NCBI GenBank assembly: GCA_025617745.1
Contig: CM046873.1
Coordinates: 28,657,410 to 28,721,409, forward strand
Length of the DNA: 64,000 bases
From: Heliocidaris erythrogramma
Lineage: Eukaryota; Echinodermata; Echinoidea; Camarodonta; Echinometridae
Direction: 5' to 3'
Positions 32,643 to 64,000 of the stretch are shown here, in pieces. Both the position numbers and the translations under genes were made by a program. Each line of letters opens with the position of its first letter. The first letter of the stretch is position 1. Under the pieces are notes generated by a model. That model was not told the DNA's origin. It worked only from the letters and a program-made list of their open reading frames with translations, and searched no databases.

Positions 32643-35600
32643 GTACCTTAGATTAAATCATTCTCAGACAAAATGTATGAGCCAGAGCAGGCTTCGGAAA
32701 TGACCTGCGTTGATAAGGAATGATGGGCCCTACTATCGGCCGTCTAATTAATGATGGTTGTAGCAGTTGGGAATAACATTGATCATCAAGAAGTAAACAA
32801 ACCAAAAAGCAAAAACAAACAATAAGCACACACACACAAAAGGGACAAGCAATGACAGAAAGTAAAATCTCTCTAAGTCTCCCCCTCTTGATAAAGGCCA
32901 CTTGGCTATAGTGACCCCATAAATTTTCTCCCTCCAAAAAAGAAAAATACCATTCATCTGTCTACATTGGTTACGTTTTGTATTTTCATTGGGTTGCCCT
33001 AATATAAATATTCGACTCATTTGGGAAAGGAAAAATGATACAATTGTATGTAAGCTTGAGAATATAATAGAAGCATGGGTGTATTCCGAAAAACGGGGGG
33101 GGGGGGGGTTAGAATATATTTCGCTATCTTTGAAGTTTCGGGAGCCGTTAGACCGACTGCAAGTTGACTTTACCCCAGGCCTTCAAACAACGGATGGGTT
33201 TGGGGGGGGGGGGGGGGGGGGGCTCATCACCTCGAAGGAAGAAGTATCTTGCGCACTTCTCATTTCCAATAATTATTTTCATTTAATAAATCGTGATATA
33301 ATTCTGATCGGATCTCTGGTTTTCACCAAGTTCGACATGTGTGATGTGCCTTGGGTAAGGCAAAACTATTAAAAAGCTGTAAAAAAAAAAAACACGTCGG
33401 AGTCAGATATTGAAATCATGATAAATACATGTATGTTTATAGAAATGGGTTCATTGTAGACATGGTAGAATCTATGTTCTTTCGTCAATCAAATTAATCA
33501 GTGGTGGAACGCTATTAATCTCAAATTTATATCACCCATGCATGCACAGGCAACACCGAACCCGCAGCCGAAGTAGAATGGACGTGGAGCGAGTGCGTAC
33601 CAAACAAAGGCTCATGCGGCAAGGGACAGAAGACCGGTAACTGCAGCGGTGAGTTGTGTGAAGTCGCCAACAAGACAGCCGACTGCCGCGTCAAGTGCGC
33701 AAAGGAAGTGGACACAACCGAAGCTCCGGCTATAAGCGATGTTGAAGGGGCGGTTGCGGATGCAGCTCCGGCTCGAGGCGGCGGTAGACCCGGTAAAGGA
33801 CGTCGACCGGGCAAGGACGGGACTGGGAAGACTCAGGAGAACAACGGGAACGGGAATGGGAGGAGGGAGAAGCCACAAAGAGGGGAGCGAAGACCCAACA
33901 AGACCAACAAACCAGCTAAGACAAAGGGTGAGCTAAATAACCAACATACCAGGGCCTCGTTATCAATAAAAGGTTCCAATAATCGTTAAAAGCTACTGAA
34001 ATCCTTGAATCTGATTAGCTGAGAGCGAATTTGTCACAAAAATGAGGCAGGTTTTACTAATAACAACTTTTATGAAACGGGGCCGAGGGGTCCATTTAAG
34101 AAAGCTTGTTATCAGCACCACCTGTCACGACATCCTCTAACAATATGTACGAACAGCGAAAATTCTTAGTAGCGTATCTTTATCAATTATTGTAAAACGA
34201 TATTGATAACAAACTAAATGAATCAATGCCAAGATCACAAATGCTTAAGTTATGCATGTCATTATGCATATACTTATCTACTAAGATAAATACTCAAAAT
34301 AATACTAATATTATTATACCTTGTGATTACGGATAACGGTGAATGCAATAATTGGTATATTGGCTCTCAGTGAGTAAGCGCCAATACATTTGAAAACATT
34401 AGTACACTGGGTTAATTCTTATAATTACCCATGGATCTATTCCAAGTTTAAGCTTGTGATGGGGGTTGTAATCAAAATGGTTGTTTTGGCGCATGAAGGC
34501 CGGAGAAAGTATGAATTGAGATAAAAATACTATTGTCCGGTGTAATCAAGAAATTTACTAATAAATGTAAAATAGAGATGCTCTTCATACTTGCCCTTTT
34601 CCCAAAAGCTATTACTCACCGTCATAAAGGCCGTACAATGTTGGAACCCCCCATAAACAAACAAAAACAAAACAAAAATTGAATAGTACTACCGATTATA
34701 ATGTAGACCTATAACTCTTTGATTTTCCTTTATTATCATTCTTTCCTAGAATGCACATACGCAGGAGCGACGATGTCCGAATGCGACCCGATCACCAACA
34801 GAATGAACAAGACCCGGGCCCTGATGGGAACCCCTACCCCAGAATGTCCTGAGGTAGTGGTAGAAACGGTGCGGTGCGATAGGATCACATTGAGGAGAGA
34901 GAACAGAAGTGAGTATTTGTCTGGTTTAGAAGGGGCGAATCCAGAAATTTATAATGGGGGAGGTGAAAGTGACCTCGCTAGAGGGGTGCATGAGGATGGC
35001 TTGTCACATCCCGATTCAAAATGATCTGCAACAACCATGCCGAAAGGTGGGGGCGGATGGGGAGGCGGAATGTTGACCCGCGGTAAGTTTTATTGATGTT
35101 TTCTTGGTGTTTAAACTGTGAGGAACGTAGGGTCGACTTCTCCCTATCATCCATGATTTATTGTAGATAGACACTCTCTAGACCCCGTCTAAGAAAAAAA
35201 CAACTTGCAATTCAATTGAATCGACCACGAGTCCTCTAAGTAATTGCAAATGGACTCTACCAACAGCTATTTTGAAAAGAGATTAACCAGCGGAGGCAGA
35301 AATAATCGTCTGGTATGGGGGAATTGTTTGATAAGAACAGACTTTGTCAGTATGGAGAAGGTTGACGAATGTCATTTGTAATAAACAATTCCTCACATTA
35401 GACGATTTTCTATCTATATCCAACCCGGCCTGGTTTTATCGATGTTTCAAGAAGTATGACTGATGGTTACAGTTATTAATTATGAGGTTTGCTCGGTCAT
35501 TGCACCTAATCATTTTTAATTTCCTTGAAATGTTTGCGACCGTGTTATATCAACTTCAAGTGTTTCTTTTTAAACTTTAACCTCAGATTGTAACTACACG

Positions 35601-58896: not shown

Positions 58897-61800
58897 GTAC
58901 CTTAGATTAAATCATACTCAGACAAAATGTATGAGCCAGAGCAGGCACCGGAAATGACCTGCGTTGATAAGGAATGATGGGCCCTACTATCGGCCGTCTA
59001 ATTAATGATGGTTGTAGCAGTTGGGAATAACATTGATCATCAAGAAGTAAACAAACCAAAAAGCAAAAACAAACAATAAGCACACACAAAAAAACAGAGG
59101 GACAACCAATGTAAAATCTCTCTAAGTCTCCCCCTCTTTATAAAGGCCACTTGGCTATAGTGACCCCCTAAATTTTCTCCCTCAAAAAAAAGAAAGAAAT
59201 ACCATTCATCTGTCTACATTGGTCACGTTTTGTATTTTCCTTGGGTTGCCTTATTATAAATATTTGACTCATTTGGGAAAGGAAAAAATTATACAATTGT
59301 ATTTAAGCTTGAGAATATAATAGATTCAGGGGTGTTTTTCCGAAATTTAAAACCGGGGGGGGGGGGGGGGGGAGGGGGTAGGATATATTTCGCTATTTTT
59401 GAAGGTTCGGGAGCCGTTGACCGACTGCAAGTGGAATTACCCCTGGCCTTCAAACAACGTATGGGTTGGGGGGGGGGGGGGGGGCTCATCACTTCGTTCG
59501 GAAGGAAGAAGTATCTTGTGCACTTCTCATTTTCAATAATTATTTTCATTAAAAAATCGTGATAAAATTCTGTTCGGATCTTTGGTTTTCACCAAGGTCG
59601 ACATGTGTGATGTGCCTTAGGTAAGGCACACCAATTAAAGCTTGAGAGTAACGATTAAAAATCTGTAAAAAATTGAGAACACGTCGACGTCAGATATTGG
59701 AATCATGATAAATACATGTATGTATATAGAAAGAAACATTCGTGTTCATTGTAGACATGGTAGAATCTATGTTCTTTCGTCAAATTAATCAGTGGTGGAA
59801 CTCTATTAATCTCAAATTTATATCACCCATGCATGCACAGGCAACACCGAACCCGCAGCCGAAGTAGAATGGACGTGGGGCGAGTGCGTACCGAACAAAG
59901 GCTCATGCGGCAAGGGACAGAAGACCGGTAACTGCAGCGGTGAGTTGTGTGAAGTCGCCAACGAGACAACCGCCTGCCGCGTCAAGTGCGCAAAGGAAGC
60001 GGGCACAACCGAAGCTCCGGCTAACGGCGATGTTGAAGGGGCGGTCACGGATGCAGCTCCGGCTCGAGGCGGCGGTAGACCCGGTAAAGGACGTCGACCG
60101 AGCAAGGACGGGACTGGGATGACTCAGGAGAACAACGGGAACGGGAATGGGAGGAGGGAGAAGCCACCAAGAGGGGAGCGAAGACCCAACAAGACCGACA
60201 AACCAGCTAAGACAAAGGGTGAGCTAAATAACCAACAGACCAGGGCCTCGTTATCAATAACAAGTTCTGATAATCGTTATAAGCTACTGAAATCCTTGAA
60301 TCTGATGGGCTGAGAGCGAAGTTGTCACAGAAATGAGCCAGTTTTTTTTAACTAATAACACCTTTTATTTAAGAAAACTTGTTATCAGTACCACCTGTCA
60401 CGATATTCTGTAACAAAATGGACTAACAGCGAAAATTCTTAGTAGCGTATCTTTATCAATATTGTAAAAAAAGTTAAATGTTACAAGTTAAGTTACAAGT
60501 TAAATGAAACAATGCCAAGATCACAAATGCTTAAGATATGTTATGCATGTAATTATCTGCTAAGCTAGTTACTCAAAATAATACTATAGCTTGTCAGAAG
60601 CTTGCCGGAATAACAATAACTTATTAATGTGATTTATCACTATCAAATATTATACCTTGTGATTACGTATACCGGTGAATGCAATAATTGGTATTTTGGT
60701 TCTCGGAGAGTAAGCGCCAATACATTTGAAAAGATTAGTACACCTGTGTTAATTCTTATAATTACCCATGGATCTATTCCAAGTTTAAGCTTAACTATAT
60801 GCCCTTTTCCCAAAAGCTACTAGTCACCGTCATAAAGGCCCTACAATGTTGGACGCCCCCCTAAACAAACAAACACAAAAACAAAACAAAACTGAATAGT
60901 ACTACCGATTATAATGTAGACCTATATCTCTTTGATTTTTGCTTTATCATTCTTTCCTAGAATGCACATATGCAAGAGCGACGATGTCCGATTGCGACCC
61001 GATCACCAACAGAATGAACAAGACCCGGGCCCTGAAGGGAACCCCTACCCCAGAATGTCCTGAGGTCGTCGTAGAAACTGTGCGGTGCGAGAGGATCACA
61101 TTGAAGAGAGAGAACAGAAGTGAGTATTTGTCTGGTTTAGAAGGGGCGAATCCAGAAATTTATAATGGGGGGGGGGGGGGCATTATTCTTCCGACCGGGG
61201 GAGGTGAAAGTGACCTTGCTAGAGGGGTGCAAGAGGATGGCTTGTCACATCCCGATTCAAAATGATCTGCAACGCCCCTGGCGAAAGGGGGGGGGGGGCG
61301 GATGGGGAGGCGGAATGTTGACCCGCGGTAACTCCGAAGTGGCTTATTATTGCAAATGGACTCTACCAACAGCTATTTTGAAAAGAGATTAACTAGATAA
61401 TCGTCTGGTATTGTTTATAAGGACAGACTTTGTCAGTATGGAGAAGGTTGACGAATGTCATTTGTCAACAATTTACTGCAATAAATCATATATACCTACC
61501 TATTATGCCAGTAGTCTTGACTACGGGACCCTTCGAGAATTTAACACAAATGAGTCACAATATTGTGCGCACCCCCCGTAATCCTATTGTCCCCTTCGCC
61601 ACTCACGCGCGTCAACACGCTACGGCCATCTTCCTCTTTCTTGCTCGCCCCCGACGAGATAGGACGTATAGTCACAGCGCTCCTGAAATCAGGTCGTATA
61701 GTATCTTTTAGGTGCGCTTTTTCGCACATTTAAAGCACTTTTAGGTACCTATATTCGCTTAGATTATAGTACTGTATGTTTAGTAGTCACTTTTGCCGAT

Positions 61801-64000
61801 TGCAAGGGATTTTTGATATCCTTTTCTTGGCATTTATTTTTCCCTTTCACGGTCAGCCCCACGTAGATATTTCTGTGTGTTTGCGGGTGTTTCCGTTTGT
61901 CACCGAGCCTTTGGGTTCGGTGTTTGTTCTAACGGTTTTTTGGCTGTGAAAATCTTTTGTGCGTATCTCCCAAATAAATTTTACTCTTATTTTACTGCAT
62001 TCAGTTGAAGTATTTCTTATTTCGAAAAGTATACTTTATTGTCTGTTTTATTGCAGTGGTATGAATTCGGGTTTCTCAGATGGTTCGGGGATTTCCAATT
62101 CCCCGCTGTTAAGTGGTGTGATTCGGTCGTTCTTTTTGAAGCGACCTCCTTGTTCTAGGTTAGTGCCGTCTTGGAGTCTGCCTAAGGTCCTGGAGGCCTT
62201 GGCGAAACCTCTTTTCGAACCGTTAGGTGAAGCTCTCTTCATCATCTTACGGTTAAGACGCTCTTTTTGGTAGCTTTTGCCTCTGGGCAGAGGCGCAGTA
62301 CTCTTCAGGCTCTCTGCCTTACTCCTGGTCATGTTCGCTGGGAGAGAAAAGGCGTTAGATTGATTCCTAAGGCTTCTTTTATTGCCAAGAATCAGACAGC
62401 TGCCTCTGGCCCTGTTGAGATTTTTCTTTGTCTGCTTTCTGGGTTTTCGTCAGTGCGCGAGGACAAAGTTTGGTGTCCTGTTAGGGCTCTCAAATGGTAT
62501 ATTGATAAGACTAAGTCTTATCGTAAGGATGATCAGTTGTTCCTGATCACTAGAGAGCCTTTTTCTCCTGCTTCTCTTGATTCCATTTCTAGATGGATTG
62601 TCGAGGCTATTAGGGCTGCTGGCACAGGGGCTCTTTTTTCCGACAGTAAGCCTCGTGCTCATGACACTCGTAGTGTCGGCACTTCTTGGGCTCTGTTTCA
62701 AGGTGTGGCGCTTGATGATATTTTGAAGGCTGCTTATTGGCGTTCGCCCAATTCCTTCATTTCTTGCTACCTTAGGGATGTTCCCGCAGGTGAGGCTATG
62801 TTTGCGTCAGCCACCTTGAAGGCCGCTGTGTCTTTGTATTCTTCGCTGTAATCCTATTCCCTTCTGCTTGAAACATGCCTCCCGGTCTTTGAGTTGGCGC
62901 TGGTCTGGCATAATAGGTAGGTATATATGATTTATTGCAGTAAATTTGTAAAATCAGCACTGATTTTCTTATTTACTATATAAATCTATATACCTACCTA
63001 TTATGCCAGTAGTCTTGACTACGGGACCCCTTCGAGAATTTAACACAAATGAGTCACAATATTGTGCGCACCCCCCGTAATCCTATTGTCCCCTTCGCCA
63101 CTCACGCGCGTCAACACGCTACGGCCATCTTCCTCTCTTGCGAGCAATCCCAAGTAGAAACATGTTGCTTGCAAGGTGAGGGGAAGGAGGGAGGGTCATA
63201 GGTAGGTATATAGATTTATATAGTAAATAAGAAAATCAGTGCTGATTTTACAAATTCCTCGTATTAGACGTTTTTCTATCTATATCCAACCCGGCCTGGT
63301 ATGACTGATGCTTACAGTTATTTATTATGAGGTTTGCTCGGTCATTGCACCTAATCATTTTTAATTTCCTTGAAATGTTTGCGACCGTGTTATATCAACT
63401 TCAAGTGTTTCTTTTTAAACTTTAACCTCAGATTGTAACTACACGAGGGGTGAGTTTGGACCGTGCAATGAGACGACAAACCGTATGACCAGACAGGACA
63501 CACTCTCAGACCCCGACCAGGTTTCTGAGGAGTGCAGATTGGTGAGGACCATCGAGAAGAAATGTCCCAGATCAGGTATGGAAATCTTCATTTGGTAAAA
63601 AAAAATATGCATTTTGACCATTAAAGGATCAGCCCTTTTGTCTATTGTGCCCACCCCCTTTTAGAATGAAAACCTGTTTTTTTTTAACTTTTTTTTTTAA
63701 TCATCGTCTGCAATGTTATTATACTGAGTAATCTTATTTCCATTTGTTTGAAAATCTCGGCTAACTGCCCCTTTAAAATATCCCGCCGTCGTTATTACAG
63801 TCGCATGACCGAATAGCTAGGCCTACCCGCATTTATGAATATATCTTTTGTATTTTATCTTTCTCTCACACATCGTAGAGAATAGTGGTAAGCCTGTGCG
63901 ATGCAGGTATAACTGGGAGCTAGCCCCTGCCTGCGACGAAACCACGAATAAAATCACCATGACTGGCTCGCTTGTGATTGTAGAGGGCGCCCCAGCTGAC
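58776..64000 (+). CDS. Secreted midkine/pleiotrophin-like protein, gene B (runs off the window)
   Basis: Coding exons 58776-58896, 59841-60218, 60961-61119, 63432-63575 and 63879-64000 (cut) have the same lengths, phases and borders as gene A. The signal peptide is identical. The N-type domain opens EWTWGECVPNKGSCG, and the modules open ECTYARATMSDC, NCNYTRGEFGPC and RCRYNWELAPAC. All cysteines match gene A; about 22 other residues differ. No stop or frameshift is visible in the exons present, so it looks functional. The last module expected from gene A lies beyond the window. Symbol left blank because orthology to vertebrate MDK or PTN cannot be assigned. Confidence 0.9.
58897..59840. other. 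Intron after coding exon 1, gene B
   Basis: Counterpart of 32,643-33,549, with G runs near 59,355-59,372 and 59,468-59,484. Many small indels against A. Confidence 0.6.
59841..60218 (+). CDS. Midkine-like B, coding exon 2
   Basis: Same 378-bp length as in A. Changes such as WTWG, NETTAC and KEAGTTEAPANGD are spread over the domain and linker; the Cys are conserved. Confidence 0.9.
60219..60960. other. Intron after coding exon 2, gene B
   Basis: AT-rich, no feature recognised; diverged and indel-rich relative to A. Confidence 0.5.
60961..61119 (+). CDS. Midkine-like B, coding exon 3
   Basis: 159 bp as in A. Five replacements (G to R, E to D, M to K, D to E, R to K) and four silent changes. 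Confidence 0.88.
61474..62942 (+). mobile_element. Tyrosine-recombinase element (DIRS-like or Crypton-like fossil) with perfect TIRs and AATT flanks
   Basis: 1,469 bp. Perfect 38-bp inverted ends: tactgcaataaatcatatat outward at the left and its complement at 62,905-62,942. AATT lies at both borders (61,470-61,473 and 62,943-62,946). The only coding part seen is a tyrosine recombinase region in its right half, recognised by RRSTLQALCLTPG, RAHDTRSVGTSWA and LKAAYWRSPNSF. No reverse transcriptase part is seen. The family is closest in style to DIRS-type recombinases; the small recombinase-only layout also recalls Cryptons. It looks broken, with about one visible interruption. The insertion is missing from copy A, so it is probably younger than the duplication. 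Confidence 0.75.
62947..63252. mobile_element. Non-autonomous partner element with 55-bp perfect TIRs and AATT flanks
   Basis: 306 bp. Perfect 55-bp inverted ends starting tgtaaaatcagcactgattt, with AATT on each side (62,943-62,946 and 63,253-63,256). After the TIR it shares about 130 bp (tagtcttgactacgggaccc to cacgctacggccatcttcct) with the left part of the neighbouring element. No coding capacity. Confidence 0.8.
63432..63575 (+). CDS. Midkine-like B, coding exon 4
   Basis: 144 bp as in A; one replacement (YTM to YTR) and one silent change. Confidence 0.9.
63576..63878. other. Intron after coding exon 4, gene B
   Basis: 303 bp against 1,211 bp in gene A; lacks the two ggatccgcc elements. 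Nothing else recognised. Confidence 0.7.
63879..64000 (+). CDS. Midkine-like B, coding exon 5 (cut by window end)
   Basis: The first 122 of an expected 168 bp; three replacements against A (R to K, S to P, L to M) and none silent. Confidence 0.9.

Follow-up and report, generated by a model that had tools for sequence, protein, structure and literature searches.

The locus considered herein raises the question of whether two perfect pairs of inverted repeats, lying end to end and sharing a single AATT, are two mobile elements or one. Within the window (the whole 64,000-nucleotide stretch of Heliocidaris erythrogramma DNA that was analysed), the first pair of inverted arms, at 61470-61511 and 62905-62946, spans 42 nt at 100% identity (38 bp plus AATT), the second, at 62943-63001 and 63198-63256, spans 59 nt, again at 100% identity (55 bp plus AATT), and the single AATT in the middle is common to both. 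The original prediction read these as two adjacent inverted-repeat elements. The perfect 38- and 55-bp repeats and the shared AATT of that reading are confirmed, whereas its division into two units proved wrong: the region is almost certainly one copy, with an internal deletion, of a DIRS1-like (tyrosine recombinase) retrotransposon present in high copy number, and its right-ITR segment was most likely flipped by rare recombination between arms. Specifically, what had been called 38-bp TIRs are the left terminus and the left ICR, the 55-bp TIRs are the right ICR and the right terminus, and the middle AATT belongs to an internal circle junction (the ICR) rather than to a boundary of two elements; longer copies carry, in order, the left end, RT/YR, ICR and right end.

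The evidence for a single element comes largely from its other copies. A search of the genome from which the window comes (26 contigs, 1.06 Gb in all), with a query in the inverted form, gave 163 matches, the best 40 of 5352 candidates being scored. The join of the two supposed elements, that is, the ICR, was covered by each of the 40 top rows of this list, which argues that the join belongs to the element. When the modules of the window copy were mapped onto each of 20 stretches of 9 kb, copies followed the order left end, leader, internal region, 3' part of the YR, ICR, right ITR segment and right end, and 16 of the 19 copies with both ends measured were 5.1-6.7 kb long, the rest being 4.9, 7.3 and 8.0 kb (a count made without the three window-locus copies and without one 8520-bp row of L028, in which the ends of two copies had been paired). 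The window copy is ~1.8 kb; its interior is gone, so that the leader now abuts the 3' part of the YR. The ICR is the inverse complement of both termini. The family encodes a reverse transcriptase (RVT_1 at L028:3322-6015, E = 1.6e-21 in Pfam), borne on a natural ORF of 898 aa that runs on into the same YR region, and the deleted window copy is without it. Inverted terminal repeats are likewise a property of the family, as seen in 2321 exact matches genome-wide (1134 + 1187) to the canonical ICR-to-right-ITR pattern (e.g., L009-L024); in the window copy, the outer termini are alike only in part, and the conserved part of the ITR is direct, not inverted. The features that mark the family as DIRS1-like are its termini, its ICR, its reverse transcriptase and its clean insertion. 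For Gag, RNase H and methyltransferase, the ORFs tested, which were fragmentary, gave no accepted Pfam match.

Taken at the window locus alone, the perfect TIR pairs and the AATT at all three borders would suit two separate DNA transposons or MITEs standing side by side, each with its own TIRs and its own AATT target duplication. Set against the rest of the genome, this alternative retains a negligible probability, given that the ICR join of the two "elements" recurs genome-wide in 2321 + 44 exact pattern matches, that the YR and left-end sequences are part of longer copies (5.1-6.7 kb in 16 of the 19 measured), and that the borders of other copies are unlike those of the window copy. Nor does either unit have a 4-bp target duplication of its own, as would be required of TIR DNA transposons and MITEs.

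Read as one DIRS1-like copy, the window element runs along the plus strand from 61471 to 63253 (1783 bp with one ATT), as delimited by its inverted arms, the module maps and the empty sites, and it is bordered by a host A at 61470 and by the target ATT at 63254-63256. The left terminus (61471-61511) starts with ATT and is the exact inverse complement of the left ICR at 62905-62945. The conserved left ITR (61504-61637) was placed by module matches and by a direct repeat of it within 63002-63137; left-end stretches of 43 and 109 nt are repeated directly at 62987-63029 (D2) and 63028-63136 (D1). An ATTCGG at 62065-62070, located by eye, sits at the internal-deletion junction, where the 5' leader meets the YR 3' part, and a reading by eye against the leader of L009 and the ORF of L028 suggests that it is a microhomology. 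The 3' part of the YR ORF (62231-62851, 206 aa), assigned by putative motifs, precedes the ICR (62905-63001), an inverted circle junction that joins the inverse complement of the left terminus, AAT/ATT and the inverse complement of the right terminus, with its AATT at 62943-62946. Beyond it lies a 196-bp right-ITR segment (63002-63197), which comprises an ITR copy and ~56 bp of unique sequence and is inverted relative to the canonical form, and finally the right terminus with its right extension (63198-63253), which ends in ..GATTTTACAA and is the exact inverse complement of the right ICR. As DNA, the hairpin at 62943-63256 folds far beyond chance (z = -16 against 100 shuffles); an RNA fold of a canonical right segment did not stand out (z = -0.43).

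The YR ORF of the window copy carries RRSTLQ, HDTRS and AYWRSPNSFISCY, with the Y following AYW, which we take to be the R, HxxR, W and Y catalytic residues of a tyrosine recombinase; most other copies read RRSTLH. Across the 42 segments compared, an HDTRS-type box lies in the longest frame of 40 and a Y box in that of 33, in the position expected. Searches of Pfam and NCBIfam gave no match to the putative YR, a PDB sequence search returned three unrelated matches only (E 0.9-1.4), and an AlphaFold model of one YR ORF, made without an alignment, was of no use (pLDDT 35).

How, then, does such an element join its target? The suggestion that AATT is a core shared by a recombinase was right in kind, in that a short crossover sequence is shared and the target is not duplicated, and wrong in extent, in that ATT alone is involved. 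By the refuting condition that the original prediction set for itself, a strict AATT at both borders is refuted by the other copies, which show it in just 6 of the 22 insertions with both borders read. Of the 22 left borders, 11 have an A before the ATT, 10 have a T and one has a G (the anchor required TTTACTGC, and two of the 24 distinct left contexts, being reads of the ICR, were left out). All 23 left ends displayed in the module-mapped stretches read xATTTACTGC, three of these being duplicates of the window locus and one end being displayed twice. On the right, the trinucleotide after ..TTTTACAA was ATT in only 29 of 88 borders (20 of 38, plus 9 of a further 50), which falls short of the "identical 3-bp" target of the published model. 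One insertion (L001, L003) is counted twice in the 88, and the further 50 exclude duplicates with shared flanks, L069 and L099 (no right end in the stretch), and five copies that continue with ATTTACTGC. At the same time, the flanks do not vary freely: T occupies the second place of the right trinucleotide in 35 of 38 and 45 of 50 borders. Judged from these borders, the element's putative crossover trinucleotide is ATT, not AATT, and ATT at the target would be preferred rather than required, or may have been altered since insertion. Such a weaker core, in which the element's ATT crosses with an ATT-like target, fits the DIRS1 model as given in the excerpted text of PMC3266345.

Three insertions have a known empty sequence, and they show no target duplication; the target was ATT in all three, preceded by A, T and T. 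For the window insertion, the expected single AATT at the matching place in copy A, a paralogous segment of the window, was borne out: the empty site (35384-35394, plus strand) reads AACAATTCCTC, as does that of a second empty paralog, L062 (C21:28753.6 kb), against AACA-ATT...ACAA-ATTCCTC at the filled site, and filled and empty sequences also show a 3-bp difference a few bases to the left of the insertion site. A copy nested in the leader of another copy reads CTTT-ATTTACTGC on its left and ...TTTTACAA-ATTGTCTG (ACAA-ATTGTCTG) on its right, and the intact leader reads CTTTATTGTCTG there, that is, an empty CTTT followed directly by ATTGTCTG. A third copy, nested in the right ICR of a different copy at a site between TTCTT and ATTTAC, has TTCTT-ATTTACTGC as its left junction and ACAA-ATTTACTATATAAATC as its right junction, where the intact right ICR reads TTCTTATTTACTATATAAATC. 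Two transposons with AATT duplications are ruled out as a description of the locus by these nested and empty sites. Beside the window insertion, in the locally duplicated region, positions 60975-61118 of the window are exon-like and resemble the pleiotrophin/midkine C-terminal domain (PTN_MK_C), with an E-value of 8.4e-05 that does not reach the Pfam cut-off.

The remaining peculiarity of the window copy lies in its right end, where the segment at 63002-63197, flanked by the right ICR and the right terminus, is oriented so that its ITR copy forms a direct repeat with the left ITR; in canonical copies, the segment points the opposite way. Both orientations were counted by exact patterns, which miss mutated ICRs, that of L003 included. 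From 100 places listed of the 2321 canonical matches, 30 were read, and 28 of these were canonical at both ends; the other two comprised one with an unclear right end and one without a right end in the stretch. The inverted-type pattern gave 60 exact matches, consisting of 44 flipped copies, nine nested left ends, five canonical copies followed by ATTTACTGC, and two recombinants. By source, these 60 were 20 flipped copies already collected, 30 that were fetched, the nine nested left ends, which were read from the match itself (one of them, L043, had been collected as well), and L044. The 44 flipped copies reduce to 39 insertions when grouped by shared right flanks, and they make up 44 of 2365, or ~2%. 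A near 50:50 ratio of flip to flop was rejected as an artefact of the inverted-form query and of the best 40 of 5352 candidates, the pattern counts being 60 versus 2321.

Several copies deserve mention on their own account. In L044 (C13:5596050-5596900) and L069 (C2:64857140-64857591), the ICR passes straight into the left ITR and leader, for which we propose either recombination between direct ITR copies or a template switch. L042 (C10:51013660-51014130) is canonical and has lost most of the 196-bp segment while keeping both arms. Three flipped copies, L072, L081 and L090 (on C5, C11 and C19), have the same right flank over more than 100 bases; either a single insertion was copied along with the sequence around it, or the target was a repeat. 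Finally, 45 of the first 100 canonical copies listed lie within 3.8 Mb (C1:42.8-46.6 Mb, G000), a density of ~12 per Mb, compared with 1 per Mb elsewhere in the part that was listed, and this region is perhaps a pericentromere.

The nine nested left ends bear on where the family inserts, each being joined into a right ICR between CTT and ATTTAC. A pattern for the corresponding right junction occurs at 16 places in the genome; insertions into the right terminus, where the letters are identical, would match it too. For four of the nine left junctions, a same-strand right junction lies 5.6-6.5 kb off (on C4, on C7 and twice on C21), one such pair alone having been read base by base (L043, L061); a rough back-of-envelope expectation under random targeting of ATT is ~0.2. 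These junctions point to the right-ICR ATT of the family's own copies as an insertion hotspot. In the five canonical copies in which ATTTACTGC follows the right end, the YR side of the ICR is on the other strand. In L067, L068, L080 and L086, the 29 bases read past the right end continue as the left terminus, and we take these for head-to-tail joins, presumably circle junctions that became fixed in the chromosome. The right flank of the fifth, L076 (C8:40677452-40677905), starts with ATTTACTGCA like the left terminus and then diverges; its target may have matched the circle junction over a longer stretch.

With respect to the timing of the flip, the window locus itself is informative. A single locus is present in three duplicates, L001, L002 (the window) and L003 (C21:28.72, 28.74 and 28.77 Mb), which share both insertion point and internal deletion. 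Between L001 and L003, the flanking sequence has 21 differences over 2765 aligned bases, with 11 gaps in addition, and their 196-bp segments match at 195 of 196 positions solely as reverse complements. Because the insertion point and the deletion are shared while the segment is reversed in L003, the flip followed insertion, in one branch of the duplicates, barring an assembly fault; inversion after insertion is thereby shown for this one locus, in one assembly. Flipping also seems to have recurred, since the canonical label changes eight times (bootstrap 7-9; at least four changes forced by the starred branches) on a tree of YR segments with 42 rows (20 flipped, 20 canonical and 2 recombinant; 40 different), a biased sample (inverted-form query, best 40 of 5352 candidates) in which 23 of the 37 inner branches are open.

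On the same tree, labels are more clustered than shuffled ones, which tells against a wholly scattered origin: the canonical label changes eight times, against 14.4 times on average after shuffling (1 of 500 shuffles went as low), and the inverted label ten times, against an average of 14.1 (14 of 500 went as low). This clustering, along with an older clade of 10 inverted, 2 canonical and 2 recombinant rows, would be consistent with a breeding sublineage of inverted copies, propagated as such. We consider that explanation distinctly unlikely, as the inverted form amounts to ~2% genome-wide and is found in the other well-supported clade as well (7 of 24 rows), and as near-copies cluster by themselves in a sample drawn with an inverted-form query from the best 40 of 5352 candidates.

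The flipping can be placed within a general scheme, most of which is drawn from the published model. There, RNA would be copied to cDNA and the ends completed on the ICR as template, a circle carrying right end-ATT-left end would form, and the element's recombinase would exchange strands at ATT with an ATT-like target. To this we add that the segment at 63002-63197 would have been turned round by rare recombination between the 59-bp inverted arms, that is, the right ICR and the right terminus. One candidate agent is the element's own tyrosine recombinase, acting in a Flp- or Fim-like manner between the ICR core and the right-end or circle-junction core. Identical inverted arms adjoin the ICR core and the right-end core (59 bp, or 97 bp in the circle by the circle model), the inversion recurs on the YR tree (eight changes of the canonical label, in a biased sample), and one flip is found at a locus with an ATT right border. 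Nevertheless, we regard this agent as rather doubtful. Free inversion in the circle would be expected to produce a balance, from which 44 inverted versus 2321 canonical copies is far removed, and a recombinase flip on the chromosome should favour core-matching right borders, whereas flipped copies had no significant excess of ATT there (15 of 39 flipped versus 14 of 49 canonical, P = 0.37; P = 0.35 in an earlier test of enrichment). Given the ~2% of inverted copies and the lack of significant enrichment at perfect ATT borders, flipping by host recombination or by template switching at the hairpin is favoured over the element's recombinase. A bolder version, in which the DIRS recombinase would use the ICR and the right end as an invertible switch that flips the right ITR inward or outward, like bacterial promoter-flipping recombinases, and would so create rare forms possibly between inverted and split direct repeats, is an analogy that we hold to be improbable.

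Overall, a supposed pair of AATT-using transposons gives way to a well-populated DIRS1-like family, whose putative crossover trinucleotide, clean insertion and self-targeting can be read from sequence. In the excerpted text of PMC3266345, DIRS1-like elements have inverted terminal repeats, ICRs overlapping on a 3-bp circular junction and a right extension; their ends are NTT, most often ATT, and they make no target duplication. A table in the same source gives SkoDIRS1 of Saccoglossus as ATT / ATT / AAT, with a length of 6052 bp. The present family is the same as these elements, so far as those passages describe them, in its inverted termini, its ICR on a 3-bp circular junction, its left-end ATT, its right extension, the lack of target duplication, the putative YR at the 3' end, upstream of the ICR, and a size of ~6 kb. 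The window copy departs from them through its internal deletion and through a right ITR whose conserved part is direct rather than inverted, a form absent from the same passages.

Dictyostelium DIRS-1 offers a second comparison. In the portions of PMC5633606 used here, it is reported to insert preferentially into DIRS-1 copies, with which the self-insertion read in the present family agrees. Both of its ITRs are promoters, the right one being believed to drive an antisense RNA that feeds silencing, according to excerpts of PMC4482531; if these promoter roles apply to the present family, transcription from a flipped copy would run outward and its antisense RNA would be lost. A flipped right ITR has no mention in the excerpted literature on DIRS structure and inversion (PMC3266345, PMC9210276, PMC5633606, PMC4157794, PMC6681497, PMC4482531, PMC5941688).

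Finally, the flipped copies invite comparison with the split direct repeats of PAT and Ngaro, as described in passages of PMC4157794 and PMC9210276. They are like them in repeating a left-end stretch directly before the right end and unlike them in that the ICR and the termini stay inverted, the A1-B1-A2-B2 order being absent; the family does not belong with the split-direct-repeat elements. Intermediates between split direct and inverted repeats are needed but "are not observed", in the wording of the excerpted PMC4157794, and by analogy the flipped copies would be, at most, a one-step rearrangement toward such intermediates, infrequent and perhaps leaving no descendants. The rare inverted right ITRs reported herein are the kind of structural form that those passages of PMC4157794 call unobserved, and they offer a concrete test of whether a DIRS recombinase inverts DNA.
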